IMG/VR virus record: IMGVR_UViG_3300008117_006829
Span: 1-24,018 of that record
Length of the DNA: 24,018 nucleotides
Origin: a virus
Direction: 5' to 3' (one strand)
Both the position numbers and the translations under genes were made by a program. Under the pieces are notes generated by a model. That model searched no databases. It saw only the letters and a list, made by a program, of their open reading frames with translations, and had not been told where the DNA came from. Shown one piece after another: positions 7,368 to 23,127 of the stretch (the first letter of the stretch is position 1; every line of letters starts with the position of its first letter).

Positions 7368-7377
7368 CTATAAATAT
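7368..7377 (-). promoter_or_regulatory. ATATTTAT motif, 21 bases before the 7346 start
   Basis: The minus strand reads ATATTTATAG in the short gap between two structural genes. It is one of eight copies of the same core placed just upstream of gene starts, and a candidate late promoter for the encoded gp55-like sigma factor. The longer spacing than at most other sites makes this copy a weaker case. Confidence 0.4.
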
Positions 7378-7384
7378 GTTAAAT

Positions 7385-8125
7385 TTAGAAGTTTCCACCG
7401 CTTAAACTATCTATCGCTGATTGTTCATTGATAAGTTTTTGTTTAACCTCACGAGTAATTGTATCGATATTTGCTAATACCTCAGGAGATAAGTTATTTG
7501 GTATTACAAAACCATATGATGTTTTACCATCACGTTTTTTAAACACTACGTGAGTATTTGTTTCATCTTCTCGTCTTGACAATACTAAAAATCTTTTATA
7601 ACTTCCTGATATTAAGTCGCTGGAATATAAGTTAGAAAGGGGTGTATCCAAAGTAACTTGTAATAAGCTTGCAGAAGTATTTACATTTAATACTCTTGAT
7701 TCTACATAAGTACTATCAGATAAATAAGTTAATATAATATCAAATGGTTTAATACTAAATGGATAATCAACATCCCCATAAGTACTATATAAACTATTTT
7801 CAGATCCAGTTAATGGATTAGGAACAAATGTATAATTAGTATCATGGAAATTACTTACACCAGGAGAAAATGTAATCACATTATTGTTTCCAGCTACTAA
7901 TGAAGATGATATAGAAGCTGAACTAAAATAAGGGCAGTTTGTTGTAACATATCCAATTGATGGAGCTAATGACGATACATTTAAAGCACCTTTACTTATT
8001 GAGGCAGTAAAGTTATTTGCCTCTGTAGTTCCTTTAACTTTAAATTTAAAATACAGTATATCTCCATCCTGTAAATTAACAGAACTTTGATCTATACTAA
8101 ATGATTTGGTTTGTGTAAAGGCCAT
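7385..8125 (-). CDS. Hypothetical phage structural protein
   Basis: This 246-residue protein is not recognised by family. It begins MAFTQTKSFSIDQSS, is dominated by predicted beta strands with many Ser/Asn, and has a more charged segment (VLSRREDETNTHVVFKKRDGK, shortened here to its key residues RREDE and KKRDGK, about 186-207) before an alpha-helical tail (EVLANIDTITREVKQKLINE). It begins 11 bases after the stop of the very large structural gene and has no regulatory motif in between, so it is probably co-translated from that message. Position between the 1225-residue protein and fibre-like proteins suggests a baseplate or tail-fibre component. Confidence 0.65.
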   Translation of the reverse strand: MAFTQTKSFSIDQSSVNLQDGDILYFKFKVKGTTEANNFTASISKGALNVSSLAPSIGYVTTNCPYFSSASISSSLVAGNNNVITFSPGVSNFHDTNYTFVPNPLTGSENSLYSTYGDVDYPFSIKPFDIILTYLSDSTYVESRVLNVNTSASLLQVTLDTPLSNLYSSDLISGSYKRFLVLSRREDETNTHVVFKKRDGKTSYGFVIPNNLSPEVLANIDTITREVKQKLINEQSAIDSLSGGNF

Positions 8126-8136
8126 TTTTAATTATT

Positions 8137-11100
8137 TTAACATTGAGGTACACCTGTATTAGTACCTAATACTCCACTTGTTATAGGATATACAGGAAGT
8201 AATCCAGATCCTGGAAGATATTGGGCTACATATCCTGTTACACTAATAGGAGTTAAAAGATTAAAGTCTGTGTAAATAGTATCTCCATCTGTAAGGTAAT
8301 CTCCAACAGTATAATCTTTACTTGACCATCCTGCTACAGTAGCTGCACTACATGGATCAGATGCTAAAGAACCAGAGGTATAAAATACTCTATATGATGT
8401 TACAGGCACAACATTAGTAAATATTTGATCTACCTCAAATAATGGATTTGGATCACTATTTTTAAATACTTGAAGAGACCAAGTAGCATTAGCACCATCA
8501 GGTAATGTTAAAGTTAAATCAAGTGATGCTTGTACTCTATGATCACCTGATTCTTGAACTGAATAACTAGGTTGTGTTGTTGCTGTTCCACCTGCAAAGT
8601 ATGAAGTACCTTCAACTACAGTATCAAATAATTTAGTTACAAATGAAGAAGATATTGGGTGATTCATTGTACCAGATCCACTAACAGTATAAGGTTCACT
8701 GTTATATGCTGTAGCTAAATAACTACCTAAAGTACCTGATGGTTCAAAATATATTTTTGGGTCACCACTACATGAGGCAAAGTAAAGTATTGGGTTATAA
8801 GTATAACCACTATCAAAAATAGGTTTAGTACCATCAACAATCTTTTGGTTACTAAACTTTTGATTATCAAATAATGATACATCTAATACTTCACCTGCTA
8901 CAAATGTATTTTGAATTTCTTGCCAATGTTTATTACGTTGGTTTAATTCAGTTAATTCACCAAGGCTATTTACTAAATATTTTAATGCTACATTATTACG
9001 ATTAGGTAAAAACTTATTAGCAGTAACCTCTGTAAATAAACCTATTTTAAGTACATTTTTATCTATTGCTGCTGTTTTACCATAAGAATCATCTCCTACA
9101 TAATTAGCAGAGGCACTAGTATAAGTATTATATTTTAAACTAGATACTTTTACCCCATCATAACGTGATAACATATGTGTTTTTAAGGACTCATATGAAT
9201 CTTGTAATTCAGCTGTTGTTAGTATATAATTTGGTGTACCGTAAATATATTCAATATCTCTTCTAGTACGAGATATTAAACTATTTGATACATTATTTAA
9301 CATTACATTAAAATCTGTATGGTCAAAAGTATACAAATTACCTGCTGTAAGACTTGCAGTTGGAAATAGATAAGGGTTATAATTTCCTGCTTCAAAATAA
9401 GCATAAGTATCTATATAACTACCTGTAAAAGCACCATTATAATAAGCTGCTCTACTCCCTGTTAATCCTTGATAAATGTCAGTATATTCAGTTGTAATAG
9501 TAGGTCCTGCTATACTGCCTGTATTTACATCAACTTCAGATGTAGATGAAGGATTAGCATAAGACCATTTATTTCTTTCAAGTATAGGTGAACTAATAGT
9601 TACACCAGTTGATAAACTTGTTCTTGCAGGAACAAAATCCTGCAGCATTTTAAATAATGAATTATCAAAAAACTGAATTAAGCGAATAAAGCTATTATAG
9701 TCAGTTGCTGCTAATGATCCACTACCTAAAGAAGCAGTATATGGTAATTGAGATGCTGATAATGGAGATAAAAATGTATTTCTATCTACATCTAAGGCCG
9801 TGTACGAACTACTATATAAATAACCAGGATCACCAATAATATCATCTATTGTCCAAGAGGCACTTACAGCTACAATTGATGCTGAAGAGTAAATATCAAT
9901 TTTATCTTGTGGAGAAAATGATATATCAGCATAATTTAAATCATTTGTTCTAAATAAGTTAGAGGCTGTTGGATATTCAATTACACTAATAAGAGGTGAT
10001 AATACACTACCTGTTACAATACTACTAGATACAATTCTAACTTTGTCATTATTAAATTCATCTAATGTATTTGATTTTAAATCACCACCATATTCTTTAA
10101 CAATTAAAGTACTACCTGTAATACCAAAAGTAGATACTAATGTTTGTAAACCATAAGTTGTACCCTTAGTTTTTAATAATAAAGGTAAGTTATGATAAAT
10201 ACGTTTATAAGATTCAGCAAGTAAATCCTTACGTGGTACTGTATTTAAATAAGAACCAGTTGAAGTAAAATTATCATCAAAATTAGCACTACCACTATTA
10301 CCAATCAAGAAATTTAAATTACTTGAATCTCCATATTGGTTATATAATTTAGTACCTAATGATTCTAATACATAATATACTAAATCTTTAGATACACCTT
10401 TTTCTAAATTATTGTTTGCTAAATTAATGTCAGTAATAGCTGATAAGAAAATCCAAATATTATCAAAATAATGACCAACCATATCAAGAAAATTAAGATA
10501 TGGTTCATTATTACCATCATCTTTAATAAATGATGGTACAGTAAATGTTAATTTATTTTGATTTATATCATCATAATCCTCAGCACTTCCTGTAGCCCAA
10601 TCATACCATTGTTGTACTTTAACTGATGATGTAGAAAGTAATGGGTATGGTAATAAAGATCCTGTTTTTGGATATGGTGTAATATTATAATCTAAAGAAG
10701 ATGTTAAAGTAGATCCACTTTCAAAATATAAATAATACTCAAACCCATCAAACCCAGCAATTAATTCATTTATACTAGCAGTAGCTCTATTTAAATCATT
10801 GAGCATATTAGGATAAAGAGAAGATGAAACAGTATATTTTGCAATGTCTGTTTTATAATCTTCTATTTGTTTTACCTTATCATAAAAGTTTGTTATTCGT
10901 TTTTTAGCTGAACTAAAAAATACAAAGTTATTAAAATCAGAATAATCTGTATTAATATCAATACTTTGTGAAGTAACTAAACTTAAAAATTGCTGGTATG
11001 ATGCAGTAGATATAGTATTAATGCTAGTAACTAAGCTACTAAATGTTTGGTATGGAGTAGCTACATTATTTTGATTAGGAACATCAATAGCGAAATTAGG

Positions 11101-11814
11101 ACCTTTTAACTGTGGAGCTGGTGGGGGTAAAATTAATCTGTCTAAGTTAATTTCAAAAACATATGGATTGATTTTTTCCTTTACTATCCATAATGTAGAT
11201 TTATCAGAAATATTATCTGGTAAAGGTTCATATAATTTAAATAGTATTTCGTATCCACTTTCAAGTTTATTTAAAGCCGTATTAACAGCTATAGACTGTA
11301 CATTATCTCCAAAGTTAATGATATAGTCAACAAAGTAAACTGAGCTTGAGTATGAATTTAAAATTGCTAGTGAACCACTTTCAATTTGTTCATTAGTTAA
11401 AGTAGTAGAGCCTACTCTTATTTCTGTTCTATCAGCAGATACTTCTTTTAAAAATAAACCTTGTTGATCAGCATCAGAAATAGTATTATTAAAGAAATTA
11501 TATCGAACATTAAATTCACCTGATGAATAACCTAAATTTTGAAGATCTTTAATAGGGTCAATCTCAATAATAGGCAAAGATCCATTAACTGGATCCATGT
11601 ATGAGGTAGTAGGTAATTTGAAACTTTTATAGTTATAGTTTATTTCTAATAAATTACCTCCAGCATCATAAACATAATACTCAATGTAATCGTTTTGTTG
11701 CCCAAAATCTTCTTTGATTAAAAATGGAGATAATAAATTAAGATCATCCACATTATAACGAGGAATCTCTTGTGTATTTAAAATTTCACCTACTATTTTA
11801 ATATTATCAGCCAT
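8137..11814 (-). CDS. Large baseplate/tail structural protein, possibly gp7-like
   Basis: At 1225 residues this is the largest gene in the window. Near residue 540 it has ESYKRIYHNLPLLLKTKGT followed by a LQTLVSTFG segment, which resembles the core of P2 gpI-type and other baseplate tail proteins (LP-LLKTKGT and a downstream FG). It starts ADNIKIVGEILNTQEI, contains long mixed alpha/beta stretches, and ends in a Ser/Gly/Thr-rich region with several cysteines (SCSGDP, DPCSAAT) and an IYTDFNLLTP segment typical of exposed Bacteroidota-phage domains. T4 gp7, also a large wedge protein (1032 residues), lies next to gp6 in T4; here several genes intervene, so the gp7 parallel is tentative. Its start overlaps the stop of the preceding gene by one base (TAATG). 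Confidence 0.75.
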   Translation of the reverse strand: MADNIKIVGEILNTQEIPRYNVDDLNLLSPFLIKEDFGQQNDYIEYYVYDAGGNLLEINYNYKSFKLPTTSYMDPVNGSLPIIEIDPIKDLQNLGYSSGEFNVRYNFFNNTISDADQQGLFLKEVSADRTEIRVGSTTLTNEQIESGSLAILNSYSSSVYFVDYIINFGDNVQSIAVNTALNKLESGYEILFKLYEPLPDNISDKSTLWIVKEKINPYVFEINLDRLILPPPAPQLKGPNFAIDVPNQNNVATPYQTFSSLVTSINTISTASYQQFLSLVTSQSIDINTDYSDFNNFVFFSSAKKRITNFYDKVKQIEDYKTDIAKYTVSSSLYPNMLNDLNRATASINELIAGFDGFEYYLYFESGSTLTSSLDYNITPYPKTGSLLPYPLLSTSSVKVQQWYDWATGSAEDYDDINQNKLTFTVPSFIKDDGNNEPYLNFLDMVGHYFDNIWIFLSAITDINLANNNLEKGVSKDLVYYVLESLGTKLYNQYGDSSNLNFLIGNSGSANFDDNFTSTGSYLNTVPRKDLLAESYKRIYHNLPLLLKTKGTTYGLQTLVSTFGITGSTLIVKEYGGDLKSNTLDEFNNDKVRIVSSSIVTGSVLSPLISVIEYPTASNLFRTNDLNYADISFSPQDKIDIYSSASIVAVSASWTIDDIIGDPGYLYSSSYTALDVDRNTFLSPLSASQLPYTASLGSGSLAATDYNSFIRLIQFFDNSLFKMLQDFVPARTSLSTGVTISSPILERNKWSYANPSSTSEVDVNTGSIAGPTITTEYTDIYQGLTGSRAAYYNGAFTGSYIDTYAYFEAGNYNPYLFPTASLTAGNLYTFDHTDFNVMLNNVSNSLISRTRRDIEYIYGTPNYILTTAELQDSYESLKTHMLSRYDGVKVSSLKYNTYTSASANYVGDDSYGKTAAIDKNVLKIGLFTEVTANKFLPNRNNVALKYLVNSLGELTELNQRNKHWQEIQNTFVAGEVLDVSLFDNQKFSNQKIVDGTKPIFDSGYTYNPILYFASCSGDPKIYFEPSGTLGSYLATAYNSEPYTVSGSGTMNHPISSSFVTKLFDTVVEGTSYFAGGTATTQPSYSVQESGDHRVQASLDLTLTLPDGANATWSLQVFKNSDPNPLFEVDQIFTNVVPVTSYRVFYTSGSLASDPCSAATVAGWSSKDYTVGDYLTDGDTIYTDFNLLTPISVTGYVAQYLPGSGLLPVYPITSGVLGTNTGVPQC

Positions 11815-12155
11815 TACCTATTGCTTGTTGCTTTAGTTAATTCATTTATTGTTGTTTGGGCATCAAGTACTTGTTGCCTTAAAGCAGTAATTTCATCTAG
11901 TAGTGCTTGAACATCTTCTTGACTAATAGATACACCTAAATAATCTGCCTCACGTTGTAAAATAAATCGATGTGAGTTTGTTTCTCCTTCAGTTGGAATT
12001 TGATAAAATAATTGATCATATAATTCAAAAAAATCCTCAACTGAAAATGATAATTCTTCTTCACCTGCCCCAATTAATTGATTAAATTGAGTGTTAACTA
12101 CTTTTGAAAAAGTATCTTTATCAAATACTGTTTTTTGTACAGGAATTTGAGACAT
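11814..12155 (-). CDS. Small hypothetical structural protein with coiled-coil tail
   Basis: The 113-residue protein is acidic in the middle (AGEEELSFSVEDFFELYDQLFY) and ends in a predicted coiled coil of heptad-like leucines (VQALLDEITALRQQVLDAQT). It begins SQIPVQKTVFDKDTF. Both ends overlap neighbouring genes by single bases (stop and ATG sharing TAATG), so it is translated with the large protein downstream and the 365-residue protein upstream. Family not recognised. A small trimerising or connector subunit of the baseplate would fit, but this is inference from the coiled coil and position only. Confidence 0.65.
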   Translation of the reverse strand: MSQIPVQKTVFDKDTFSKVVNTQFNQLIGAGEEELSFSVEDFFELYDQLFYQIPTEGETNSHRFILQREADYLGVSISQEDVQALLDEITALRQQVLDAQTTINELTKATSNR

Positions 12156-13252
12156 TATCTTACAACTTTAAAAATATAATTGTTATCAAACACTACTGTT
12201 TCACCATCTGCCATTACTGATTTTAAAAGTATTTTGTAATAACGTTCTGGTTCCAATCCGTTCATATAAACATCAAAGTAGTTGCTTGATGAATCACAAC
12301 TAATTTTAGTATATGAGGTATCATAATCTACGACAATTTCTTCAGTATCCAAATCTTTTATTGACCAATATGAAGAAGAAGGTAATGCTTTTTGATTAGC
12401 AAAGCTTAATGTAGTTCTAAATGTTACAGAAGGGTAAATATCTCTTACAGCAACTCTAAAACGTTGAACTGAATCTTGTTGATATTCACCTTTATTGTTA
12501 TTTAATGTAGGTACACAGTAGCTAGAGGTAACTACTACTAATGAACCAGTAGTATAAGATGAATCATTCCATCTAAATTCTAATGATGGAGGATAAATAG
12601 TATGAGTAGTATCTGAGAAATATTTTAATTCAAATTTAGAGGCTGTTGTAAACTCTAAAGATGAAGAATGTTTTAAAATAAAACCATAATTAGAAATAAC
12701 ATTAGTGTAACTAGCACTTACAGCATTAGTTACCTTCAGTTCAATATCTTTTTCAGTATTAAATGTAAAAGATTGAGTTGATTGGTAAGTAGAAGCAGTA
12801 TACCAAGTGCCACCACCAAAATTGCTTCCAGAGTAAGAACCAGTAATACCTGGTAAAAAGGTACCAGTTGTCCATTTTGTACTTCCTGATTGGTCTGTAT
12901 ATGTCCAGCTTACTCCATTTGTAGTTTGGGGTAAATTACCTAAACGTCCTGTACCTTGGTTCCAATCAGCTGCTATTGGGTGACAAAATATAGTATAATC
13001 TAATGGAATTGCAGAGGCATCTGCTAAGTATGCTTTTAAATAAACATCAAAACTAGATGTTTTAATTAGATTAGTAAAAACACTACTTATTTCGCTTGTT
13101 GAAAATTTAATTACAGGGCGAGATACCTCTTCAGTACTTTCAATAGATTCATATGTACTAAGTTCTAGTATTTCGTCTAATCCTGTATTTAAAGCAGGAT
13201 AGAATGAATAAAGCGTTGCGCTTTTTTCAGGGAATATTTTATAAACGGCCAT
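12155..13252 (-). CDS. Phage structural protein, DNRLRE-like beta-sandwich
   Basis: The 365-residue product opens with YKIFPEKSATLYSFYP, then NTGLDEILELSTY. That resembles the start of DNRLRE-type beta-sandwich domains, which carry a D/SAT-Y pattern followed by N-G and a row of strands. Segments such as SFDVYLKAYLADAS, HPIAADWNQGTGRLG and GGTWYTAS fit a jelly-roll adhesion domain over residues 1-240. The C-terminal part (FRVAVRDIYPSVTFRTTLSF, DVYMNGLEPERYYKILLKS) reads as one or two Ig/FN3-like domains. It may be a fibre or decoration protein that contacts glycans or anchors other fibres. An ATATTTAT element and an imperfect hairpin precede the ATG. Confidence 0.65.
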   Translation of the reverse strand: MAVYKIFPEKSATLYSFYPALNTGLDEILELSTYESIESTEEVSRPVIKFSTSEISSVFTNLIKTSSFDVYLKAYLADASAIPLDYTIFCHPIAADWNQGTGRLGNLPQTTNGVSWTYTDQSGSTKWTTGTFLPGITGSYSGSNFGGGTWYTASTYQSTQSFTFNTEKDIELKVTNAVSASYTNVISNYGFILKHSSSLEFTTASKFELKYFSDTTHTIYPPSLEFRWNDSSYTTGSLVVVTSSYCVPTLNNNKGEYQQDSVQRFRVAVRDIYPSVTFRTTLSFANQKALPSSSYWSIKDLDTEEIVVDYDTSYTKISCDSSSNYFDVYMNGLEPERYYKILLKSVMADGETVVFDNNYIFKVVR

Positions 13253-13296
13253 AGTTAGTAATTACTACGTATAAATATAGTAGCTACTAAACTGTT
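13253..13296 (-). other. Imperfect hairpin enclosing an ATATTTAT element
   Basis: The gap between the endolysin gene and the next structural gene can fold on the minus strand into a stem AGTTTAGTAGCTACTA against TAGTAATTACTAACT, with one bulge, one wobble and one mismatch. The loop is TATTTATACG, so the ATATTTAT core (13278-13269) spans the end of one arm and the loop. It has no downstream run of T, so it is unlikely to be a simple intrinsic terminator. A processing site, or an operator around a promoter, is possible. Confidence 0.45.
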
Positions 13297-13890
13297 TTAC
13301 GCCAATAAATGGTAATATTCTTTAAAGTGCTTTTGACGATCAGCTAAACCAATCGTACCACCGTTAACACATTTAGTCACGGCTAATACAGATGCATCAG
13401 AGGCATCTTTACACTTTGCTAGACAATTTTTAGAAAAAAACCAAGCAGCGGATAACAGTGGATATTTAGTAGCAACTAAATCAGGATTAGCAGCAATATC
13501 AACACCAATTGCTTTACCAAATGCTGTATAATTTTGCTTACCTGTTAATTGGATATAACCACGTCCACGAAATTTAAAACCTTCACCTGATGTTTCATCA
13601 CCATTACCCATGCGAGATGCATAAACGCGATTAGCTATTTTTTCAGGTTTACGTTGATATTGTTCAGCTAAAGCTTGTGTTGGAAAATATTTTTTAAATA
13701 TACCTAATAAACCTTTAGCAGAATAATTAAGATTTTCATTTACAACACGAAATCCACCTGATTCATGTCCACATTGGGCTAAGAAATGTGCTACTTCAAC
13801 TGGTGTATCAATACCAAATTTAGTCATTACATCAGGAATCTGAGCGATTACTGTATCAGGAATATGTCCTTTTAATTTATTTAAATCCAT
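13297..13890 (-). CDS. Endolysin, glycoside hydrolase family 19 (chitinase-like lysozyme)
   Basis: The 197-residue protein matches the catalytic domain of GH19 phage endolysins over its whole length. It has the first catalytic Glu43 in AQCGHESGGF, a second acidic candidate Glu52 in NENLNYS, the substrate-cleft segment FKFRGRGYIQLTGKQNY at about 106-121, and a closing VTKCVNGGTIGLADR. It cleaves the glycan strands of peptidoglycan (family knowledge) and should act in lysis. No signal peptide or membrane anchor is present, so a holin elsewhere is expected. It lies inside the baseplate operon next to the gp6-like gene, so a tail-associated role is an alternative. It has its own ATATTTAT element 13 bases before the ATG, allowing separate late expression. 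Confidence 0.92.
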   Translation of the reverse strand: MDLNKLKGHIPDTVIAQIPDVMTKFGIDTPVEVAHFLAQCGHESGGFRVVNENLNYSAKGLLGIFKKYFPTQALAEQYQRKPEKIANRVYASRMGNGDETSGEGFKFRGRGYIQLTGKQNYTAFGKAIGVDIAANPDLVATKYPLLSAAWFFSKNCLAKCKDASDASVLAVTKCVNGGTIGLADRQKHFKEYYHLLA

Positions 13891-13903
13891 ACTTTATAAT
13901 TTT

Positions 13904-13913
13904 CAATAAATAT
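13904..13913 (-). promoter_or_regulatory. ATATTTATTG motif, 13 bases before the endolysin start
   Basis: The minus strand reads ATATTTATTG, with its first base in the stop codon of the gp6-like gene, then exactly 13 bases to the endolysin ATG. The same 10-base element with the same 13-base spacing occurs before the 129-residue gene at 19302, and variants at 13 bases occur before the 20632 and 22499 starts. It is a candidate late promoter or translation-leader signal. Confidence 0.5.
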
Positions 13914-15742: not shown

Positions 15743-15744
15743 TA

Positions 15745-16155
15745 TTATTGAAATTGTACTGTTACTTGATCTGGTGTATTAGATATGTTTAAAATATAAT
15801 CAACACTTAAGCTAACTAAATTATAATCAGCATTTGGTGTTACAGTTATATTAGTTAATGTTATTTGAGGAAGATAAATAGAAACACTATTTGTTAAACT
15901 TGCTTTTAATAGTTCTATATTTTCCTCAGTTATATGAGCAAATAAAAATCGTCTTAATTCAGTTCCAAATCCAGGATTCATTACTCTTTCTCCTGTTTCT
16001 GTTAATAATAAATTAATTAAGTTAGATTTAATTTGATCCTTAGTAGTATAAGTACTTTTAAATACACCAGGTGCATTAAAAGGCAGCGATACCCCAATTG
16101 CAATATTTTTCTGTAAATCTAATGGATTTACTCGTATTACGCGAGGTATTGGCAT
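15745..16155 (-). CDS. gp25: Baseplate wedge subunit, gp25/GpW family
   Basis: The 136-residue length matches T4 gp25 (132). The diagnostic segment is TETGERVMNPGFGTELRRFLF, with E-x-R-x-x-x-P-x-x-G conserved across contractile tails, R-type pyocins and type VI secretion sheath-initiators (TssE). The N-terminal LPFNAPGVFKSTYTTKDQIKSNLINLL and C-terminal strand-rich end complete the fold. It connects the baseplate wedge to the sheath start and forms the core bundle with gp6. Its stop lies two bases before the gp6-like start. The gene name carries the historical word lysozyme in databases, but no catalytic role is implied. Confidence 0.92.
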   Translation of the reverse strand: MPIPRVIRVNPLDLQKNIAIGVSLPFNAPGVFKSTYTTKDQIKSNLINLLLTETGERVMNPGFGTELRRFLFAHITEENIELLKASLTNSVSIYLPQITLTNITVTPNADYNLVSLSVDYILNISNTPDQVTVQFQ

Positions 16156-16156
16156 A

Positions 16157-16486
16157 TTATCCTAAGTTTCTTAATCCTGATAAATCCTGAGCAGTCATGT
16201 TAGCAGCAGCGTCTTCAATAAAAGCCATAAATGGATTATCTGCTTTAGGATCTACTTTTAATTGTGGTTGAGCTTGAGGCGTGTCGTAACCAAACATGGC
16301 CCCCATTTTACTACGTAAAGCCGATTTAGTATCAGCCCCCATCGGTACATCATTGCTAGAAAAACTAACGGTTCTACCTTCAGTTAATTCTTGCTTTCTT
16401 TGCTCTAATAACATCACACCAATTTCTTCACGAACTGCTTCGCGAACCGCTTCTTTAATTAATTGTTTAAATAATTTTGCGTTCAT
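16157..16486 (-). CDS. Small hypothetical virion-associated protein
   Basis: I chose the ATG at 16486 (109 residues, NAKLFKQLIKEAVREAVREEIG at the start, here named by its amphipathic repeat KEAVREAVREE) instead of the longer frame from 16525, because the longer one runs 26 bases into the upstream gene and its extra codons read through an ATATTTAT element. The N-terminal helix is strongly amphipathic. The remainder is low in hydrophobics, and ends NPFMAFIEDAAANMTAQDL. A similar helical motif (K-E-[AM]-V-R-[EQ]-E) occurs in the 178-residue protein at 20809-21345. Family not recognised; it sits directly before the gp25-like gene with only one base between. Confidence 0.65.
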   Translation of the reverse strand: MNAKLFKQLIKEAVREAVREEIGVMLLEQRKQELTEGRTVSFSSNDVPMGADTKSALRSKMGAMFGYDTPQAQPQLKVDPKADNPFMAFIEDAAANMTAQDLSGLRNLG

Positions 16487-16488
16487 AT

Positions 16489-16498
16489 TTATAAATAT
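16489..16498 (-). promoter_or_regulatory. ATATTTAT motif adjoining the 16486 start
   Basis: The minus strand reads ATATTTATAA two bases before the chosen ATG, and overlaps a perfect TATAAATA (16493-16486), the T4 late-promoter -10 sequence. If it were the promoter for this gene the message would have to start inside the coding region, so either the real target is downstream (gp25/gp6) or the element acts in translation. Confidence 0.35.
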
Positions 16499-16499
16499 T

Positions 16500-17744
16500 T
16501 TATCCTTGTAAGTTTTGTTGATCAATAACTAGTTTCAATTGTTCTATTAAATCATTAGGATCCTGGGTGAATGAATATTCACTTTTAAGTTGTTCTAGCC
16601 CATCCCTATTAATAGCTACGGCATAACGGCGTTTGTTACCTTTAACGACAAATTTTAAATCATTTTCCTCTTTAATTTTAAATTTAAATCCTTTGTATGG
16701 AGGATAATCTAAACCAGTTGGTAAAAAGAAATTAGACAATGCTGTTAAATTATCTAATGATTTTCCGTCTAATTTTAAGCTAATTTCCTTTAATCTTTCT
16801 TTTAATTCTTTTATTCTATTAACCTCGTTTCCTAGTAATGTAGTAGCAATAGCTATAACAGTAGTTAATGCTGCTACTAATGCTAATAGTCTTGTTAATC
16901 TTGGTTGTAATTTTATTTGAACAGGAATTAAAAAAGGAAAAGGTAAGTTTATTATCACAATAAAACCAGCTATTATAGCTGAAATTGTAGCTAGAATTCT
17001 TGTTATTTTTTGTAAGGAATCTCTTAATTTTTCTAATTTTTTAGCACTATTGTTAATTAATGTAATAGCATTATTTCTTAAATTAGTAGCAATAATAACT
17101 GTTTGTTCATCTTTTACTTGTGTATCAATATAAACATTTACTTGATCTACTAAAAGTTCTAATTTTTTTCTTTGATTAATTATATTAAAAAATTGTTTAA
17201 TAAGCTGTAGAGCAATTACAGGTGCTAAACTTTTAGCTGTATTAGTAGCTACTTGTTTAGCTAAATCTATACTAGATTTTGTTTCATCACTTTGAGATTT
17301 CTTTCTTAATCCTTTTAATCTAGTTTTTAAAGCTTTTTGATTTTGTCTTATTTTAGTATAAGGATCATTTTGTATAGCATTTTTATCTTGTTGTATTTTT
17401 TCTCGCTGTACATTAATAGCTGCTATTTCTGCTCTATAGGCAACCTCAGCTGCAGCTTTAATATCGTTATACTGTTTTTCAGTAATTTGTTTTGAATTAT
17501 AATCCTTTTGAGCTTTTTCAACTGTTGCTTTTTGTGTTTCTCCTGCTTGTTGTTCTTTAATAGTTAATGCTTGTAATTCATTATCTAATTGACCTGTTTT
17601 AGATTGATTACCAACAATCAGTTTTTCTTTATTTTTATCTATAAGTTGAGATCCAAAAGTTTTAATGGCAGTAGCAGCTGATATTGTTTTTAAAATATCA
17701 GGCGATATAACAGGTGCTACATTTATTTTATTTTTATCTGCCAT
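16500..17744 (-). CDS. Tail/baseplate-associated protein with coiled coils and a hydrophobic hairpin
   Basis: The 414-residue protein is highly Lys/Gln/Ala/Ile-rich and mostly helical. A long charged coiled coil covers about 45-155 (LQALTIKEQQAGETQ, KQITEKQYNDIKAA). A second helical stretch at 165-245 follows, then two hydrophobic segments near 248-272 and 284-305 (ATISAIIAGFIVIINL; LLALVAALTTVIAIATTLLG), another short coiled coil, and a small C-terminal domain (DYPPYKGFKFKIKEENDLKF). Lying between the spike and gp25-like genes, it occupies the position of hub or tape-measure components. It is short for a myovirus tape measure, but the coiled coils and membrane-like hairpin fit a protein threaded through the tube and released into the host membrane. 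That role is inferred. It overlaps the spike gene by one base. Confidence 0.65.
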   Translation of the reverse strand: MADKNKINVAPVISPDILKTISAATAIKTFGSQLIDKNKEKLIVGNQSKTGQLDNELQALTIKEQQAGETQKATVEKAQKDYNSKQITEKQYNDIKAAAEVAYRAEIAAINVQREKIQQDKNAIQNDPYTKIRQNQKALKTRLKGLRKKSQSDETKSSIDLAKQVATNTAKSLAPVIALQLIKQFFNIINQRKKLELLVDQVNVYIDTQVKDEQTVIIATNLRNNAITLINNSAKKLEKLRDSLQKITRILATISAIIAGFIVIINLPFPFLIPVQIKLQPRLTRLLALVAALTTVIAIATTLLGNEVNRIKELKERLKEISLKLDGKSLDNLTALSNFFLPTGLDYPPYKGFKFKIKEENDLKFVVKGNKRRYAVAINRDGLEQLKSEYSFTQDPNDLIEQLKLVIDQQNLQG

Positions 17745-18916
17745 TATGATGTAAATACTTTTTGTGATGGAATTTTTTCTATTAAATCACACATGCGTTG
17801 AGCATCCTTAATTAATTCTTTACCAGCAGCATTTATTCCTAACATAGGAGCACCCTCAGGTACTCCAACAGCACTAGATAAATAACTAGCTAATTTAGTT
17901 AATGTTTGTTGTAAATGTTCAAATAAATTAGTTGTTTCGTACCCTAATAACACTGGTTGAGGGATATTATTACTATTATAAGGACCTAAAAATACTGAGT
18001 TTGAGTTTAAATGCACTCTTGTATCGGCATTTAAGTTAATAATATTTTTAGTATTTATTTCAACGTTAGTGGTAGCAAAAATCATTACTTCATCTTTTTT
18101 AGAGTTTAAAGTAACACGATCTGCATTTATAATAACTTGAGCATTAAAATAATCAGGTGCATTTAAAGGATTAGTTAAATTATTTAATACACCTGTTTTA
18201 TCAGTTTGTAAAGGTAATTTTTGAGTTGAGGTTAAATAAATAGAAGATGCATCTAAATTTATTTTTTCAACATGGTATTTTTCACCAGGTATATAAGCAA
18301 ATCCATTTGATAAAATAGTAATTGGACTATCATCTTTACCTATGCTACTCCATTCATTTAATTTACTAAATAAAGTTGTTGTAGTAGAAAACCTAATAGC
18401 ATTGCCTTGTCTACCTTGTAAAATATGATCACCTTCAAAAGGTAATAAAGTTTTAATTTGAGGATTTTCTACAAACGTAGCTCCTAAACTAGCATCTTTA
18501 TCTGCTGGTTGAGAATTTTGTTGTTGGTTACCATAGAGATTAATGGTACTAATATAATATTTTTGAACAGAGGTATTTGATACCTGAGAGGCAGGTGATG
18601 GTAAATCCTCTAAAAATACTAATTCACCTAATACTGGGTAGTATTGGAATTGAGGGTAAAGGGGTTTAGCAACTTTACAATTATTTAAAAAATTATTATC
18701 AACTGTTCCAGTAGTATCCTTTGCTTGATCATAATCAAGATAAAAAATAGTTCCTACTCCATTATAACCACCTGCTTTTTTAAACATTTCAGGTGTTGGA
18801 GTTCCATCAGTAGTAACAACCCCATAAACTCTACCTACTTGAGCTTTTTTAATAGCTGTAAAGTTATTTTTACCTATAGAAGATACAACAGCCGATAAAT
18901 TTTCTCTTACTCTCAT
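17744..18916 (-). CDS. Baseplate central spike protein, gp5/VgrG-like
   Basis: The 390-residue protein starts with an OB-fold-like region (AQVGRVYGVVTTDGTP, YPVLGELVFLEDLPSP) as in gp5/VgrG hub-spike proteins. A middle part reads GDHILQGRQGNAIRFST, a form seen in spike proteins before the needle. Residues about 260-315 form a row of short strands (INADRVTLNSKKDEVMIF, VEINTKNIINLNADTRVHLN) consistent with the intertwined beta-helix needle. A helical tail follows (LQQTLTKLASYLSSAVG). There is no lysozyme domain, unlike T4 gp5; the GH19 gene may supply that activity. It would puncture the outer membrane during contraction. Start and stop overlap the neighbouring genes by four bases and one base. 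Confidence 0.82.
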   Translation of the reverse strand: MRVRENLSAVVSSIGKNNFTAIKKAQVGRVYGVVTTDGTPTPEMFKKAGGYNGVGTIFYLDYDQAKDTTGTVDNNFLNNCKVAKPLYPQFQYYPVLGELVFLEDLPSPASQVSNTSVQKYYISTINLYGNQQQNSQPADKDASLGATFVENPQIKTLLPFEGDHILQGRQGNAIRFSTTTTLFSKLNEWSSIGKDDSPITILSNGFAYIPGEKYHVEKINLDASSIYLTSTQKLPLQTDKTGVLNNLTNPLNAPDYFNAQVIINADRVTLNSKKDEVMIFATTNVEINTKNIINLNADTRVHLNSNSVFLGPYNSNNIPQPVLLGYETTNLFEHLQQTLTKLASYLSSAVGVPEGAPMLGINAAGKELIKDAQRMCDLIEKIPSQKVFTS

Positions 18917-19302
18917 TTTGCTGCCTCAAGTTGCACTACAGGTGCTTGTTCAAGTAATTTTTGACCTTGTTCTTGTACTGATTTTTGTTCCTCTAATAAA
19001 GCATTAATTTCATCCATATTAATTAATTCGGTTCCACTACTTGCATTAATAGTTGCGGCACGTTGTGCAATAGCTGCCATCTTAATTAATTGTTCGTTGT
19101 TTTTTACATTAACATCAATTAAATCCTTAACGGTAGGCATTAACATTACTGCGGAACCTGCGTTAGATGTGGCCATTGGTTTCATAGTATCTATGAACTC
19201 TCCAATTTGCTTATCAATATCTTTATTATTTTTGTGTATTTTTTTAAACAAATCCGATAAGGACATGCCATCAAATACCTGTACGTCATCAAAATTAGCC
19301 AT
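18913..19302 (-). CDS. Hypothetical small tail-associated protein
   Basis: The 129-residue protein is predicted mostly helical, with an N-terminal MSLSDLFKKIHKNNKDIDKQIG segment (key feature: alternating Lys/Asp helix) and a Gln/Glu-rich C-terminal helix (LLEEQKSVQEQGQKLLEQ). No family is recognised. It is the first gene of the baseplate operon, overlaps the spike gene by four bases (ATGA) and follows the sigma-factor gene after 29 bases, with an ATATTTATTG element 13 bases before its ATG. Being so tightly coupled to the spike gene, it may be a hub chaperone or tail-completion factor; this is inference only. Confidence 0.65.
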   Translation of the reverse strand: MANFDDVQVFDGMSLSDLFKKIHKNNKDIDKQIGEFIDTMKPMATSNAGSAVMLMPTVKDLIDVNVKNNEQLIKMAAIAQRAATINASSGTELINMDEINALLEEQKSVQEQGQKLLEQAPVVQLEAAK

Positions 19303-19315
19303 AAAATGCGTTTAC

Positions 19316-19325
19316 CAATAAATAT
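19316..19325 (-). promoter_or_regulatory. ATATTTATTG motif, 13 bases before the baseplate operon
   Basis: The minus strand reads ATATTTATTG, then 13 bases to the ATG at 19302. The element and its spacing are identical to those before the endolysin gene. It sits directly downstream of the sigma-factor gene and at the head of the baseplate operon, the position where a late promoter is expected. Confidence 0.55.
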
Positions 19326-19331
19326 GAATAC

Positions 19332-20105
19332 TTAAATCTTTATATATCCGTGTTGATAATATTCATTATACAATTGAACATAAATGGTTTTAAGCTTTTT
19401 AATTATTTTAGTAATCTGAGGTGTTGATACGTCTGTTATTTCGCGTATATAAATGTATAATGCTTTTTTATTAAATATTTCCAATGTTTCACGTTTACGA
19501 AATAACTCAACAATAGCATCAGCGGTTTGAGCATCTTGTTTTTTAGGAAATAATCTATATATGTGAGTGTCAATATACTTAATATATTGATCCATAAAAC
19601 TTAATTCATCAAATGCATTTTCTATATTTTTATCGTTTTCATATAGTAACATTTGTTCATCATCAGATTCATCTACATCAGCTTTTTCTTGAAGCTTTTT
19701 GTAGTTGTTCTCATTATAAACAATTAGATAGCGTTTAGCAATAGTACCAAAGTAAGAAAATGCTTTACCCTTAGTTGGGTTGTATAGATGAAGTTTTTCA
19801 AGTAGAAATGTAATTACCTCATGTTTTAACTCCTCAATCGTATCAGTATCGGTATAATAGAATTTAAACGTATGAATAATATTTTCAGCTAATTTATAAA
19901 AGCCATATTCAATACGCTCGTTGTAAATACGATTACGTTCAATTTGATCGCTAGATGCTAAATATTCTACAATTGCATCTTCAGTGTCTTGAGTAAAGTA
20001 AATACGAGGTTCTTTTGGTTTGCGTTTACGCGGTTTACCTCGTTTAGTTAGTGCTAAAGTTTCATCAGCAAAGATGTCAGCACCATAATTATCGTAATAT
20101 GACAT
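19332..20105 (-). CDS. gp55: Late-transcription sigma factor, T4 gp55-like
   Basis: I chose the ATG at 20105 (257 residues), because 15 extra codons from 20150 would read through the promoter and inverted repeat. Residues 35-130 match the gp55 sigma-2-like domain: YFTQDTEDAIVEYL, then YGFYKLAENIIHTFKF, then HEVITFLLEKLHLYNP and KGKAFSYFGTIAKRYL, the last segments being diagnostic. A basic patch (KRGKPRKRKPKEPR, 21-34) precedes it. T4 gp55 has 185 residues; the extra C-terminal part here has a helix-turn-helix-like REITDVSTPQITKIIKKLK at 221-239, resembling sigma region 4. Known gp55 proteins direct host polymerase to late promoters together with the sliding clamp. The gene precedes the baseplate operon and should switch it on. 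Confidence 0.88.
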   Translation of the reverse strand: MSYYDNYGADIFADETLALTKRGKPRKRKPKEPRIYFTQDTEDAIVEYLASSDQIERNRIYNERIEYGFYKLAENIIHTFKFYYTDTDTIEELKHEVITFLLEKLHLYNPTKGKAFSYFGTIAKRYLIVYNENNYKKLQEKADVDESDDEQMLLYENDKNIENAFDELSFMDQYIKYIDTHIYRLFPKKQDAQTADAIVELFRKRETLEIFNKKALYIYIREITDVSTPQITKIIKKLKTIYVQLYNEYYQHGYIKI

Positions 20106-20106
20106 A

Positions 20107-20150
20107 GTGATTTTCCTAGTTTTACTCCCAATATAGTGAGAGAAAATCAC
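20107..20150 (-). repeat. 9-base inverted repeat over the sigma-factor promoter and leader
   Basis: GTGATTTTC (minus 20150-20142) and GAAAATCAC (20115-20107) are perfect inverted copies 26 bases apart. The left arm lies within the promoter spacer and the right arm ends one base before the sigma-factor ATG. As DNA it could be an operator; as RNA only the downstream arm would be transcribed from the predicted start, which favours the operator reading. Confidence 0.55.
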
Positions 20151-20159
20151 ATAACCAAA
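20128..20159 (-). promoter_or_regulatory. Bacteroidota-type promoter for the gp55-like gene
   Basis: On the minus strand TTTG (20159-20156) is followed by 20 bases and TATATTGG (20135-20128), one mismatch from TAnnTTTG. The -33 box begins at the stop codon of the preceding gene. A transcript would start about 13-16 bases before the ATG at 20105. This would let host polymerase make the late sigma factor before late transcription begins. Confidence 0.55.
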
Positions 20160-20435
20160 CTAGCCTCTAGTATTATTAAATTCATTAATGATGGTTTGTA
20201 TTTCCCTCAAATTTTGAAAGAAAGTACCTACTTCATCATCAGTTTGAAACGCACCTAAAGTATCTAATTCTTTAAGTTTTTCATTAGAGTTATTAATAAT
20301 AATACTAATAGCATCAATATATTGACGTTGTTGATCAACGGCTTTTTCTAGAGCATTATTACGTCTAATAATTAAAAATACTCCAATACCAATTAATTCA
20401 ACAACATGAATTCCTATTAACCAAAGCCACATCAT
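20160..20435 (-). CDS. Small membrane-anchored coiled-coil protein
   Basis: The 91-residue protein has one N-terminal transmembrane helix (WLWLIGIHVVELIGIGVFLI) followed by RR, so the rest should face the cytoplasm. Residues 28-60 form a predicted coiled coil (ALEKAVDQQRQYIDAISII) and the tail is helical. The product resembles a small inner-membrane regulator. Its start shares one base with the stop of the previous gene (TAATG), so the two are co-translated. Family not recognised. A spanin or holin-like role cannot be excluded, though the long charged cytoplasmic part argues against a simple holin. Confidence 0.65.
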   Translation of the reverse strand: MMWLWLIGIHVVELIGIGVFLIIRRNNALEKAVDQQRQYIDAISIIINNSNEKLKELDTLGAFQTDDEVGTFFQNLREIQTIINEFNNTRG

Positions 20436-20632
20436 TATTGAGCGAATTGTTGTGCAAAATCGTCTTGTTCTAAAGAAACGATTTCGTTAATTTTTTCAAT
20501 TTGTTCTTTTACTTGATCTAAAGATTCCAAAACTTGGTCTTGATCCATTCCTCTGTTCACTTGAAATTTAACCTTGTTGACAGTAGCGTCTAATTGGTTT
20601 AATTTATCAAGTACATTGTTTTTAAATTTCAT
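20435..20632 (-). CDS. Small coiled-coil protein
   Basis: The 65-residue protein is almost entirely a predicted coiled coil (KNNVLDKLNQLDATVNKVKF; DQVLESLDQVKEQIEKINEI) with an acidic end (SLEQDDFAQQFAQ). It is translationally coupled to the membrane-anchored coiled-coil protein that follows, so the pair may form a complex. It is the first gene after the terminator and the 176-base gap, with an ATATTTATAT element 13 bases before the ATG. Its function is not recognised. Confidence 0.65.
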   Translation of the reverse strand: MKFKNNVLDKLNQLDATVNKVKFQVNRGMDQDQVLESLDQVKEQIEKINEIVSLEQDDFAQQFAQ

Positions 20633-20645
20633 AATATATGTTTAT

Positions 20646-20655
20646 ATATAAATAT
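20646..20655 (-). promoter_or_regulatory. ATATTTATAT motif, 13 bases before the 20632 start
   Basis: The minus strand reads ATATTTATAT and then 13 bases to the ATG at 20632, the same spacing as at three other gene starts. The surrounding DNA is very AT-rich, so this copy alone would be weak evidence; its position makes it credible as part of the set. Confidence 0.45.
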
Positions 20656-20725
20656 ATGACAATTTGTGGTTCCCGCTACCTCTCACGTTTATTCCCGTTC
20701 CCTTATTCTCTCAAACCCCGTAGGA

Positions 20726-20757
20726 TAAAGTTACAAAAAATATTTTATACTTCCAAA
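20726..20757 (-). promoter_or_regulatory. Possible host-type promoter in the 20633-20808 gap
   Basis: The minus strand has TTTG (20757-20754), 20 bases, then TAACTTTA (20733-20726), one mismatch from the Bacteroidota -7 box TAnnTTTG. It lies just after the terminator of the upstream gene and would give a leader of about 85 bases for the 20632 gene. The leader is purine-rich (GAGAGGTAGCGGGAACC). Confidence 0.4.
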
Positions 20758-20761
20758 GAAA

Positions 20762-20787
20762 AAGGGTATCTTTTTCAAGACACCCTT
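20762..20787 (-). terminator. Rho-independent terminator after the 20809 gene
   Basis: On the minus strand AAGGGTGTCTT and AAGATACCCTT pair over 11 positions with one G-U wobble around a GAAA tetraloop, followed by TTTCTTT. It stands 21 bases past the stop of the 178-residue gene and separates the right arm from the sigma/baseplate region. Confidence 0.85.
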
Positions 20788-20808
20788 CTTAATATAAAGT
20801 TAAACTAA

Positions 20809-21345
20809 TTAAGCGTTCTGACCCATTCCACCACCTTTACCTGTTGTAGAGGTAGAAGTAGCAGCACCACCAGTAGATTTATCAAGAGCTTGTTTTAATC
20901 CTGGTACTTTGTTTGCTAATTTAGCAAGAGCAGCTACTACAGCTACTGGAATAGCAACACCAGCTTCAGCAGATCTGAAAAGATCTTGGATCATATCCAT
21001 AGTAGCAGGAATGTCAAGACCTTCATCCATTTTCTCTTTCTTATCTTCGTCTTTCATTTTTTTCTTTTCAGCTAATACAGCTTGTAATTCTTGGCGAACC
21101 ATTTCTTTTAATTCGCTCTTAGTTAATTTCTTTTTAGTTTCCATTTCTTTGATGGTATTAATTTTTGGTGATTGTTTTAAAATTGTTTTTACAGCTTCCA
21201 ACTGTTTTGGATCATCAACAGCTACCTCAAATGTTTTCTCTAGTTTATTATCTACCATTTGATCAGTATCTAAAGCAACACCTGCTTTTTCCATACGATT
21301 CAAAAACGCAGCTTTATCTTCGAGAGCAAATTTAAATGTAGCCAT
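20809..21345 (-). CDS. Hypothetical phage protein with Lys/Glu-rich coil and Gly-rich tail
   Basis: I chose the ATG at 21345 (178 residues, MATFKFALEDKAAFLNRMEK) because an 18-codon longer frame would run through the upstream ATATTTATTG element. The N-terminal 60 residues look like a small alpha/beta domain. A charged helix follows (KSELKEMVRQELQAVLAEKK; KMKDEDKKEKMDEG), then an Ala-rich hydrophobic segment (GVAIPVAVVAALAKLANKVP) and a flexible tail ending GKGGGMGQNA. The charged helix resembles the N-terminus of the protein at 16157-16486. The layout suggests a scaffold, core or DNA-associated virion protein, but the family is not recognised. It is followed by the strong terminator. Confidence 0.65.
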   Translation of the reverse strand: MATFKFALEDKAAFLNRMEKAGVALDTDQMVDNKLEKTFEVAVDDPKQLEAVKTILKQSPKINTIKEMETKKKLTKSELKEMVRQELQAVLAEKKKMKDEDKKEKMDEGLDIPATMDMIQDLFRSAEAGVAIPVAVVAALAKLANKVPGLKQALDKSTGGAATSTSTTGKGGGMGQNA

Positions 21346-21355
21346 CAATGTTTGA

Positions 21356-21365
21356 CAATAAATAT
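21356..21365 (-). promoter_or_regulatory. ATATTTATTG motif, 10 bases before the 21345 start
   Basis: The minus strand reads ATATTTATTG, identical to the elements before the endolysin gene and the 19302 gene, here 10 bases before the ATG. With the terminator at 20762-20787 it would bound a single-gene transcript. Confidence 0.5.
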
Positions 21366-21424
21366 ACACAAGATATAAAACCCATTCATAGCCTTGCACC
21401 TACCACCTCCACTACCAATATCCG

Positions 21425-21459
21425 TATATACGCTACTTATGATAGCCTTATATACGCTA
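21425..21459. repeat. Direct repeat TATATACGCTA, 24-base period
   Basis: TATATACGCTA occurs at 21425-21435 and 21449-21459 in the gap after the small membrane-protein gene, and TATATACGCT again at 22699-22708 beside the GC-rich gap. The first two copies repeat after 24 bases. They could be binding sites for a phage regulator. The left edge of the second copy overlaps a perfect minus-strand TATAAATA at 21465-21458. Confidence 0.45.
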
Positions 21460-21460
21460 T

Positions 21461-21646
21461 TTATAATATTTGCTTTAACATTTTCTCTCCAAAATGCAAT
21501 GCAGTTTTATAATGAAGATAGATAGAAACAACAGTAGAAATAATCGTAACGATTGGTATTAAAAAAAGCTCTATCAGCCTAATATTTGCAATATAAAGTA
21601 AAACATGCGCTAGCATCCAAAATACTAAGATAATTAATTTATTCAT
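21461..21646 (-). CDS. Small membrane protein, two predicted helices
   Basis: The 61-residue protein starts at the ATG at 21646, inside the end of the T5orf172 gene with an 8-base overlap; a longer frame back to 21787 would overlap that gene by about 150 bases and is rejected. It has two hydrophobic helices (LIILVFWMLAHVLLYIA; LFLIPIVTIISTVVSIYL) and a short basic tail (HFGEKMLKQIL). Size and layout are compatible with a class II holin or a membrane accessory protein, but no family is recognised. It is the third gene of a tightly overlapping set. Confidence 0.55.
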   Translation of the reverse strand: MNKLIILVFWMLAHVLLYIANIRLIELFLIPIVTIISTVVSIYLHYKTALHFGEKMLKQIL

Positions 21647-22136
21647 TTGTATAATAATTAGTTTGATATTTTTTACCCAGGCGTTCGATAAGAGTACGAG
21701 CATCATCAGATGATATATAAAATCCCTCACGCTTTTGATTAAGACGCGCACCAAGGCGCTCGAGTTCAGTGTGGATTTCGCGCTCAAGCATCAATCCATC
21801 GGGGCACTTATACACAAATACTGGGTACCATGGCGTAATAACGCCCGTAGCCATATTAATTTGACGCACTCTATCATATACTGTGTTGGTAGTATAGCCT
21901 ATTTTACATACACCTGGAATGGAGGGATTGCAGAGAACATAGACGTAATGGGGATTTTGGGGAGTGAGAGTAGGATCGACCCAGGCTGCGCCATAATACG
22001 TTACTTGCTCCCAACCTGGTTCATTAGGGATGGGAGTAAGTGTGATAGCAATAGCGGATTTCATATTGTATTTGAAATCTAGCTCGGGCACGAGCTTGCG
22101 ATATAGCTTTGCCTCCTCCTCCGTGATTAGTTTCAT
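21639..22136 (-). CDS. T5orf172/MUG113-type GIY-YIG protein
   Basis: The 165-residue protein has a GIY-YIG-like C-terminal domain: YVYVL at 64-68, CKIGYT at 77-82, Arg89 and Arg91 in DRVRQIN, TGV, then LEREIHTELERLGAR at 117-131 and REGFYI at 136-141. This order (YVYVL, KIGYT, R-x-x-x-N, E-x-x-IH, R-x-E-F-[FY]) is that of the T5orf172 (MUG113) domain, found in phage DNA-binding or nuclease proteins. The first 60 residues are a separate, unrecognised domain. Codon use is visibly more GC-rich than in the structural genes, suggesting recent acquisition. It starts 7 bases after the 59-residue protein. A role in cutting or binding DNA is likely; whether it is a homing enzyme, a defence-related nuclease or a regulator is open. 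Confidence 0.78.
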   Translation of the reverse strand: MKLITEEEAKLYRKLVPELDFKYNMKSAIAITLTPIPNEPGWEQVTYYGAAWVDPTLTPQNPHYVYVLCNPSIPGVCKIGYTTNTVYDRVRQINMATGVITPWYPVFVYKCPDGLMLEREIHTELERLGARLNQKREGFYISSDDARTLIERLGKKYQTNYYTNE

Positions 22137-22143
22137 AACCTAA

Positions 22144-22323
22144 TTATTTAGGTGGAAGATCGTTAGGGGACTTTGCCTGGACAACACTTCCACTAGCAAT
22201 TGCTTGAGTGTATTGTTCAAGCGTTAATCCATACTGGGATGCTTCGGATTGGCGTTGTTGCTGAATATATAGTTCAAATGCCTCTTTAGTTAATAACACG
22301 TTATCTTGTAGGTATTTTTTCAT
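22144..22323 (-). CDS. Small hypothetical protein, 59 residues
   Basis: The frame runs from the ATG at 22323 to TAA at 22146-22144. The product starts MKKYLQDNVLLTKEAFELYI and continues with a Gln-rich helix, a LTLEQYTQAIASG segment and a basic, proline-containing end (KSPNDLPPK). No family is recognised. It starts within the stop of the preceding membrane-protein gene (ATGA) and ends 7 bases before the T5orf172 gene, so it is part of one operon with them. The tight coupling supports it as a real gene despite its length. Confidence 0.6.
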   Translation of the reverse strand: MKKYLQDNVLLTKEAFELYIQQQRQSEASQYGLTLEQYTQAIASGSVVQAKSPNDLPPK

Positions 22324-22499
22324 TTACTTTCGATTATGTAAAGTACTAATTTGTATAACCAAATTATACCACCGATGGCAAATATTGGTATTAAAACGAG
22401 TTTTGATTGTTCTGGATATCTAAGTACAATGCTTACTATAAAGGATAGTCCTAATAGTATGAATAGTGTGTAGAAAGCTGCTTTTGTTTTGTTGTTCAT
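22320..22499 (-). CDS. Small membrane protein, 59 residues
   Basis: The frame runs from ATG at 22499 to TGA at 22322-22320. Two hydrophobic helices are clear: about 7-25 (AAFYTLFILLGLSFIVSIV) and about 34-55 (LVLIPIFAIGGIIWLYKLVL), separated by RYPEQSK. A short basic start (NNKTK) and end (ESK) suggest both termini on the cytoplasmic side. An ACATTTATTG element is 13 bases before the ATG and the stop overlaps the next start (ATGA). It heads the accessory operon 22499 to 21461. Family not recognised; a small holin-like or superinfection-exclusion membrane protein is possible. Confidence 0.6.
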   Translation of the reverse strand: MNNKTKAAFYTLFILLGLSFIVSIVLRYPEQSKLVLIPIFAIGGIIWLYKLVLYIIESK

Positions 22500-22500
22500 G

Positions 22501-22864
22501 TTTGTTATTTGTCAATAAATGTATATACTTTGTATAGACCAAAAAAGTTGTTTAAAGGAGATTTTGGGGATTTGCAAAGATTTTCGAAAGGGGCTATAGT
22601 GGAAACCGCGGACGACGATGGGGGCGACGGGTGACGGGGGACGATGGTAGCGACGGTAGCCGACGTTACGTCGACGACATTACGTTATAGTATATGTGTA
22701 TATACGCTCGATGGGTAGAGATTGTGTTTCTGTTGAAAATACACATAGTTTTTTTACGTTGACCGCGCCCCATCGATGGACCGCAATTGGCATGGGAGCA
22801 GATCGCCATCAAACCGCTATCGGACCGCTAGCAATCGCCGGCGGCCCGATCTCGATTCGACCTT
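22501..22864. other. 364-base non-coding gap with GC-rich repeat-like islets
   Basis: No credible gene is seen on either strand. Two islets contrast with the AT-rich surroundings. The first (about 22605-22690) is a G-rich plus strand of degenerate GACG/GATG units, including GACGATGG twice, GCGACGG twice and G runs of five, three and five. The second (about 22760-22860) holds four ACCGC cores at 22762, 22780, 22813 and 22824, plus ATCGCC repeats. The central part has TATATACGCT at 22699-22708. It could be an origin, a regulatory hub or a recent insertion. Confidence 0.6.
22513..22522 (-). promoter_or_regulatory. ACATTTATTG motif, 13 bases before the 22499 start
   Basis: The minus strand reads ACATTTATTG, one base different from the exact ATATTTATTG elements, with the same 13-base distance to the ATG. 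It heads the overlapping set of four small genes that runs to 21461. Confidence 0.45.
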
Positions 22865-23071: not shown

Positions 23072-23094
23072 GTGTTTAATTTTTAATTGTGGTA

Positions 23095-23122: not shown

Positions 23123-23127
23123 CCTAT

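Follow-up and report, generated by a model that had tools for sequence, protein, structure and literature searches.

A probable late promoter of T4-like Bacteroidota phages: a single [A/C]TATTTAT box with a candidate phage sigma factor

In a 24,018-base stretch of viral DNA (the window), which is the complete record IMGVR_UViG_3300008117_006829, an eight-base element, ATATTTAT, recurs just upstream of gene starts. The element, which takes the form CTATTTAT in a marine sister clade, is probably the late promoter of T4-like phages of Bacteroidota, read by host RNA polymerase together with a phage-encoded sigma factor. One box, spanning about −12 to −5 of the coding strand and lacking a −33 partner, would set transcription to begin at a purine 5 nucleotides (nt) downstream and would bring the host polymerase with the phage sigma to the virion genes in the late phase of infection; with exactly 4 nt between box and ATG, the messenger RNA (mRNA) would begin at the AUG and be leaderless. 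The scheme would resemble that of the T4 late promoter and gp55, except that the box is changed and no T4-type sliding clamp was detected. A late-promoter type unlike that of T4, tied to a gp55-like factor, had been suggested in an original prediction made on the window, and the suggestion is supported by the placement, strand, conservation, gene class, start-site signature and sister-clade variation of the element. Its placement, strand bias, conservation, structural-gene association and purine signature, and the existence of a distinct early class, can all be read in the sequences themselves.

The phage part of the window, from about 2,100 to 24,018, comes from a T4-like phage and is a fragment; its genes include a primase, an exonuclease, an endolysin and baseplate genes resembling gp25 and gp6. 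Among annotated phages, the nearest are Flavobacterium phage immuto, whose sigma gene is 49% identical, Microcystis phage Mel-JY01 and an uncultured phage of 484 kb. The sigma gene was used to recruit viral contigs, 80 of them close and 80 immuto-like; six recruited contigs were taken at full record length (57–169 kb) and analysed alongside immuto, whose genome is complete. The first ATG was counted as the start of each gene, so that some of the spacings between box and start are blurred. These phages form a sizeable, little-studied group of aquatic T4-like viruses infecting Bacteroidota.

The total count of ATATTTAT in the window is ordinary for such AT-rich DNA (9 copies against 8.4 expected); it is the placement that stands out. 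Seven of the eight coding-strand copies lie 0–30 nt upstream of starts, a zone that makes up 3.6% of positions (binomial p = 6e-10). The element is the best placed among the 56 8-mers that share its composition, matched only by words that overlap it, and it is found in 7 of 28 upstream windows, against a mean of 0.24 and a maximum of 4 in 5000 simulations. The coding-strand positions given in the original prediction are all present, and its spacing, by which a 10-base form lies 13 bases from four starts and 10 from one, is right, because the distances from 8-mer to start are 23, 18, 15, 4, 15, 15, 12 and 15 nt (Table 1). The eighth exact coding-strand copy (2093–2100) was not listed there. It follows the stop codon of the exonuclease gene. 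Relatives (G001, G002 and G004) have the element at that place, before the next phage gene, whereas this contig passes into Bacteroidota host DNA just beyond the copy, which looks like the same late element cut off by the contig junction. The sole plus-strand copy (16485–16492) overlaps the minus-strand copy at 16491.

The same word emerges from blind scans of the long genomes. It is the most enriched upstream 8-mer in G001, G002, G003, G004 and G008 (for example 48 against 4.3 expected, and 33 against 2.4), while in immuto and G006 either ATATTTAT or the overlapping TATATTTA is among the top upstream words. Across G001–G004, 144 of 201 coding-strand copies lie 0–40 nt upstream of open reading frames, in about 6% of positions; copies on the opposite strand are rarer, lie mostly elsewhere and show no enrichment upstream of genes. 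An element no commoner upstream of starts than inside genes had been named as the outcome fatal to the promoter idea, and the long genomes of related phages give the reverse of it, an enrichment before starts on the coding strand. The marine sister clade has CTATTTAT in the same geometry (49 against 2.2 expected), with an A at the fifth base after the box in 27 of 29 sites. T4 late promoters facing the opposite way are ruled out by the lack of upstream enrichment of the opposite-strand copies.

Conservation was followed in orthologs with protein identities down to 25–35%, those within one clade not being independent. The motif [A/C]TATTTAT precedes all 157 orthologs of gene 19302 and all 47 of gene 16486, in the latter case always at spacing 4. 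It is kept before 31 of 32 orthologs of 21345, 27 of 39 of 20632 and 44 of 84 of 13252, and before only 8 of 26 of the endolysin gene 13890. Five window genes that lack the element served as controls, and none of their 343 orthologs carries it. Among the 8-mers of the upstream region in the window, ATATTTAT is the best kept at three of six genes and shares first place with an overlapping word at two; 13890 is the one gene where an unrelated upstream word is better kept. The blind word scans, the placement in the window and the conservation in orthologs together rule out a chance origin of the element.

The bases that follow the box suggest where transcription would begin. After dereplication, 295 late sites were compared. 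A purine stands at the fifth base past the box in 165 of 181 sites with a spacing of at least 14, in all 40 with a spacing of 8–13, and in about 90% overall, and G is depleted at the fourth base. Since the fifth base is mostly a purine, the box behaves as a −12 to −5 element, and the transcription start is placed, provisionally, at the purine 5 nt downstream. As a check of such composition-based placement, the T4 late region gives its purine maximum at +6 after TATAAATA, as expected, though the signal is weak and comes from 13 sites only. Upstream of the late sites no conserved column and no −33 TTTG is visible, in an analysis that left out sites with GTTG or GGCAA upstream.

The single commonest spacing is 4 nt (39 of 295 sites, all before ATG). 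With the start at the fifth base, a spacing of exactly 4 nt places it on the A of the AUG, and these mRNAs are therefore predicted to be leaderless. In the seven long genomes spacings of 8–13 nt are nearly empty (5 sites), against 21 sites at spacing 4 and 21 at 15; in the marine clade the spacings are 4–6 and 10–20. The nearly leaderless messages of the original prediction are thus to be expected for the 4-nt subset, and not for most sites, which would have a leader of about 8–25 nt. Leaders of that length are unremarkable for Bacteroidota, which lack Shine-Dalgarno sites. In the related genomes such sites precede 4–10% of genes, against 60% of T4 late genes, and translation seems to proceed without using them. 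With Shine-Dalgarno sites lacking and the box close to the ATG (mostly 4–30 nt), a translation-leader or RNA-processing signal might be imagined in place of a promoter, and a leader signal had indeed been offered as the alternative. This is very improbable: the spacing varies over about 25 nt, orthologs of operon-internal genes never carry the box (the 343 controls above), the start context is only mildly A-rich, with A favoured at −3, and the constant purine at +5, preceded by a depletion of G, has the look of an initiator. A is likewise favoured at −3 in Flavobacterium (PMC6847099). Leaderless mRNAs make up 5.5% in F. psychrophilum (PMC9723704), and the 4-nt class would thus predict leaderless virion mRNAs in hosts where such messages are a small minority. 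A search for known RNA families gave no match.

The genes behind the box are those expected of a late class. With the immuto annotation carried over by blastp in five genomes, the element precedes 38 of 112 structural genes and 5 of 118 metabolic genes (Fisher 4e-9). Genes for terminase, portal, tail tube, tape measure, PhoH and head completion, and those of the baseplate run, are preceded by it in most of the five; structural genes without the element are assumed to be served by one further upstream.

The same genomes contain a second, two-part promoter class, unlike the late box. Its form is TTTGG..GGCAAA..TCGTATATT[TC]A[CT] in the clade of the window and GTTG-N20-TATATTTAGGTAT in immuto and the marine relatives. 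It resembles the Bacteroidota sigmaA promoter, with −33 TTTG and −7 TAnnTTTG (PMC6847099, PMC9723704), and is found mainly before small unknown genes (92 early-class against 58 late-class) and rarely before structural ones (3 against 38; 2e-10). Judged by gene type, the genes behind it are probably early genes. In the clade of the window (window 23065–23760 and the early regions of G001–G004), these promoters contain, in addition to the −33-like TTTGG, a GGCAAA located some 10 nt before the −7-like box; the GGCAAA box is possibly an activator site. In immuto (L009–L012, also L151–L214), early promoters of the form GTTG-N20-TATATTTAGGTATCAATAATTAAA are near-identical over about 50 nt at many small genes, as if copied together with them.

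The resemblance between TATATTTA and the −7 box TAnnTTTG raises the question of whether the late box is itself an ordinary host sigmaA promoter, for which no phage factor would be needed. A T often precedes ATATTTAT, the resulting TATATTTA fits TAnnTTTG except for the final G, and the early-class promoters of these very phages use TATATT[TC]A. In the register deduced above, however, the late box lacks T−12, A−11, T−6 and G−5 of the consensus TAHHTTTG (PMC6847099), and no −33 TTG accompanies it. The base before the box varies, being T in 76 of 173; the marine clade has CTATTTAT; and gene type separates the early class from the late one. A sigmaA promoter is accordingly an unlikely identity for the box. 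Plain sigma70 −35/−10 promoters show no excess over shuffles.

The candidate for the factor that would read the late box is a sigma-like protein encoded beside the first gene of the baseplate run (Table 1). The Pfam sigma2 model has its best match at this gene in four long genomes, with E values of 2e-4 to 4e-3, and a profile built from the family itself detects a single copy in each of five genomes. Profile alignment with gp55 gives an hhalign E value of 4e-4. An AlphaFold model (mean predicted local distance difference test score, pLDDT, 75.5) retrieves from the PDB with Foldseek a list made up almost entirely of sigma factors, none of them significant, and a sequence-profile search of the PDB with the sigma gave no match. 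The late box at 20648–20655 precedes the sigma gene, an arrangement that would allow self-amplification.

The box might also be a promoter that is read with some other phage factor, either an activator acting with a host sigma or an unrecognised phage polymerase, and not with the adjacent sigma. Distant homologs of the sigma do occur without the box, and for half of the phage genes no function is known. A second conserved site, such as an activator would normally leave, does not, however, show upstream of the box once sites with GTTG or GGCAA upstream are excluded; there is one sigma per genome, and a T7-type polymerase was not found in a search that had no positive control. Another factor is, in our judgement, quite unlikely.

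Several points weigh against the late-promoter reading with the adjacent sigma. Nearly all genes of each genome run one way, and none of the minority-strand genes has the element; the strand bias is that of genes running in one direction. Some of the metabolic genes (GroES, thioredoxin, NadR) have the box as well, and so do small unknown genes. The sigma assignment relies on scores that are weak singly (Pfam below the curated cut-off, an hhalign probability of 34%, a best Foldseek E value of 0.08). In Mel-JY01 and LR756508, with sigmas about 42% identical, the box is absent from the 50 kb around the sigma gene, and the link between box and sigma is thus correlative. The actual start sites, the timing of expression and the recognition of the box by the sigma are deduced from sequence. 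Both Mel-JY01 (L132) and LR756508 (L133) carry homologous sigma and tail genes; no upstream word is clearly enriched in their 50 kb, and no relatives of the Mel-JY01 sigma were found among viral contigs.

Table 1. Promoter boxes and the sigma-like gene in the window (spacing in nt from box to start)
Feature	Position	Strand	Gene start	Spacing	Remarks
Late box ATATTTAT, orphaned	2093..2100	-			After exonuclease stop; phage gene replaced by host DNA
Late box ATATTTAT	7370..7377	-	7346	23	Tail gene; no orthologs passed filter
Late box ATATTTAT	13271..13278	-	13252	18	Tail gene; predicted start site 13266 (A)
Late box ATATTTAT	13906..13913	-	13890	15	Endolysin gene; predicted start site 13901 (A)
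Late box ATATTTAT	16491..16498	-	16486	4	Predicted leaderless, start site at A of ATG
Late box ATATTTAT	19318..19325	-	19302	15	First gene of baseplate run, beside sigma gene
Late box ATATTTAT	20648..20655	-	20632	15	Sigma gene is third gene of run
Late box ATATTTAT	21358..21365	-	21345	12	Before ATG
Variant late box ACATTTAT	22515..22522	-	22499	15	No orthologs passed filter
Early-class box TATATTCA	23095..23102	-	23071		With upstream GGGGCAAAG
Early-class box TATATTCA	23748..23755	-	23728		With upstream GGGGCAGAG
Phage sigma-like factor	19332..20105	-	20105		ATG start; sigma2-type domain, distantly gp55-like, and C-terminal helical domain

The first part of the window (1–2095, minus strand) holds an outer-membrane receptor gene with CarboxypepD_reg and OMP beta-barrel domains, whose best matches (54–55%) are in metagenome-assembled genomes of Saprospiraceae/Chitinophagales; a host-type TACCTTTG box precedes its ATG at 2022. 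Because this host DNA is joined to phage, the contig is probably chimeric, with Bacteroidota host sequence at one end. Elsewhere, the gene at 21639–22136 (minus strand) encodes a T5orf172/MUG113 (GIY-YIG-like) protein by Pfam, and that at 3850–4281 (minus strand) resembles by eye a putative GIY-YIG-type nuclease.

No earlier report on late promoters of Bacteroidota or Flavobacterium phages was found in the open-access papers searched. A sequence-level late promoter is now available for Bacteroidota T4-like phages, by which late and early genes could be separated in hundreds of uncultured aquatic phage contigs. It also offers a candidate sigma-box pair, with changes of AA to TT at −9/−8 and of A to C at −12 between clades, which can be compared with the solved T4 gp55 complex.

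The closest known system is the T4 late promoter (TATAAATA; gp55, gp33 and gp45), which has its box roughly one turn before the start and no −35 element (PMC2988020). Both systems have a single AT-rich 8-bp box of the −10 type with no −35/−33 element, located upstream of virion genes, and, with the new sigma as the candidate, a dedicated phage factor of the sigma2 type. Set against the T4 box (T(−13) A T A A A T A(−6)), the new one, in the register deduced from the purine, reads [A/C](−12) T A T T T A T(−5); the two agree at −12, −11, −10, −7 and −6 and differ at −9/−8, where AA is changed to TT. With five matches in the coding-strand register, the reverse-complement relation to the T4 box on which the original prediction had remarked is incidental. 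In T4, gp55 contacts A−12 through Y97, A−9 through N13 and H95, and A−8 through T99 (PMC7892883). Y97 aligns with the invariant Y118 of the new sigma, while N13 is set against a gap, H95 against F116 and T99 against G120; the change of the box at −9/−8 would thus be paralleled by replaced contact residues, which is suggestive, with moderate confidence, on one alignment. The C at −12 in the marine clade recalls the late box of phage Aeh1, which also has C at −12 (PMC2988020). On the side of the new phages, the differences from T4 include the C-terminal helical domain of the sigma, which gp55 lacks, the predicted leaderless class and hosts without Shine-Dalgarno sites. A search of five genomes, of which four may be fragments, turned up neither a T4-type clamp (PF02916, PF02768) nor a bacterial-type one, and its T4 control gave an E value of 2.9e-35; the new phages may have a diverged sliding clamp. 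The element works like a T4 late promoter, as far as its context indicates, and is not filed as a strict member of that class because the conserved box is [A/C]TATTTAT, TATAAATA is not the upstream word that is enriched and the clamp was not detected. More tentatively, and with somewhat less than even confidence, we propose a clamp-independent late system of Bacteroidota phages, in which a two-domain sigma reads [A/C]TATTTAT at −12 to −5 and routinely launches leaderless virion mRNAs with the start site on the AUG.

The Bacteroidota sigmaA promoter occupies the same −12 to −5 interval, and T−8 and T−7 are common to both (PMC6847099, PMC9723704). The late box differs in lacking a −33 element and in the bases at four of the six positions that are nearly invariant, and the phages' own early class fits the sigmaA promoter far better. 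Flavobacterium phage immuto (Immutovirus) differs from the phage of the window in the moderate identity of its sigma, which is annotated only as hypothetical, and in using both ATATTTAT and CTATTTAT. It is a cultured phage, and it shares the gene order around the sigma and baseplate genes, the [A/C]TATTTAT box and a clear early class.

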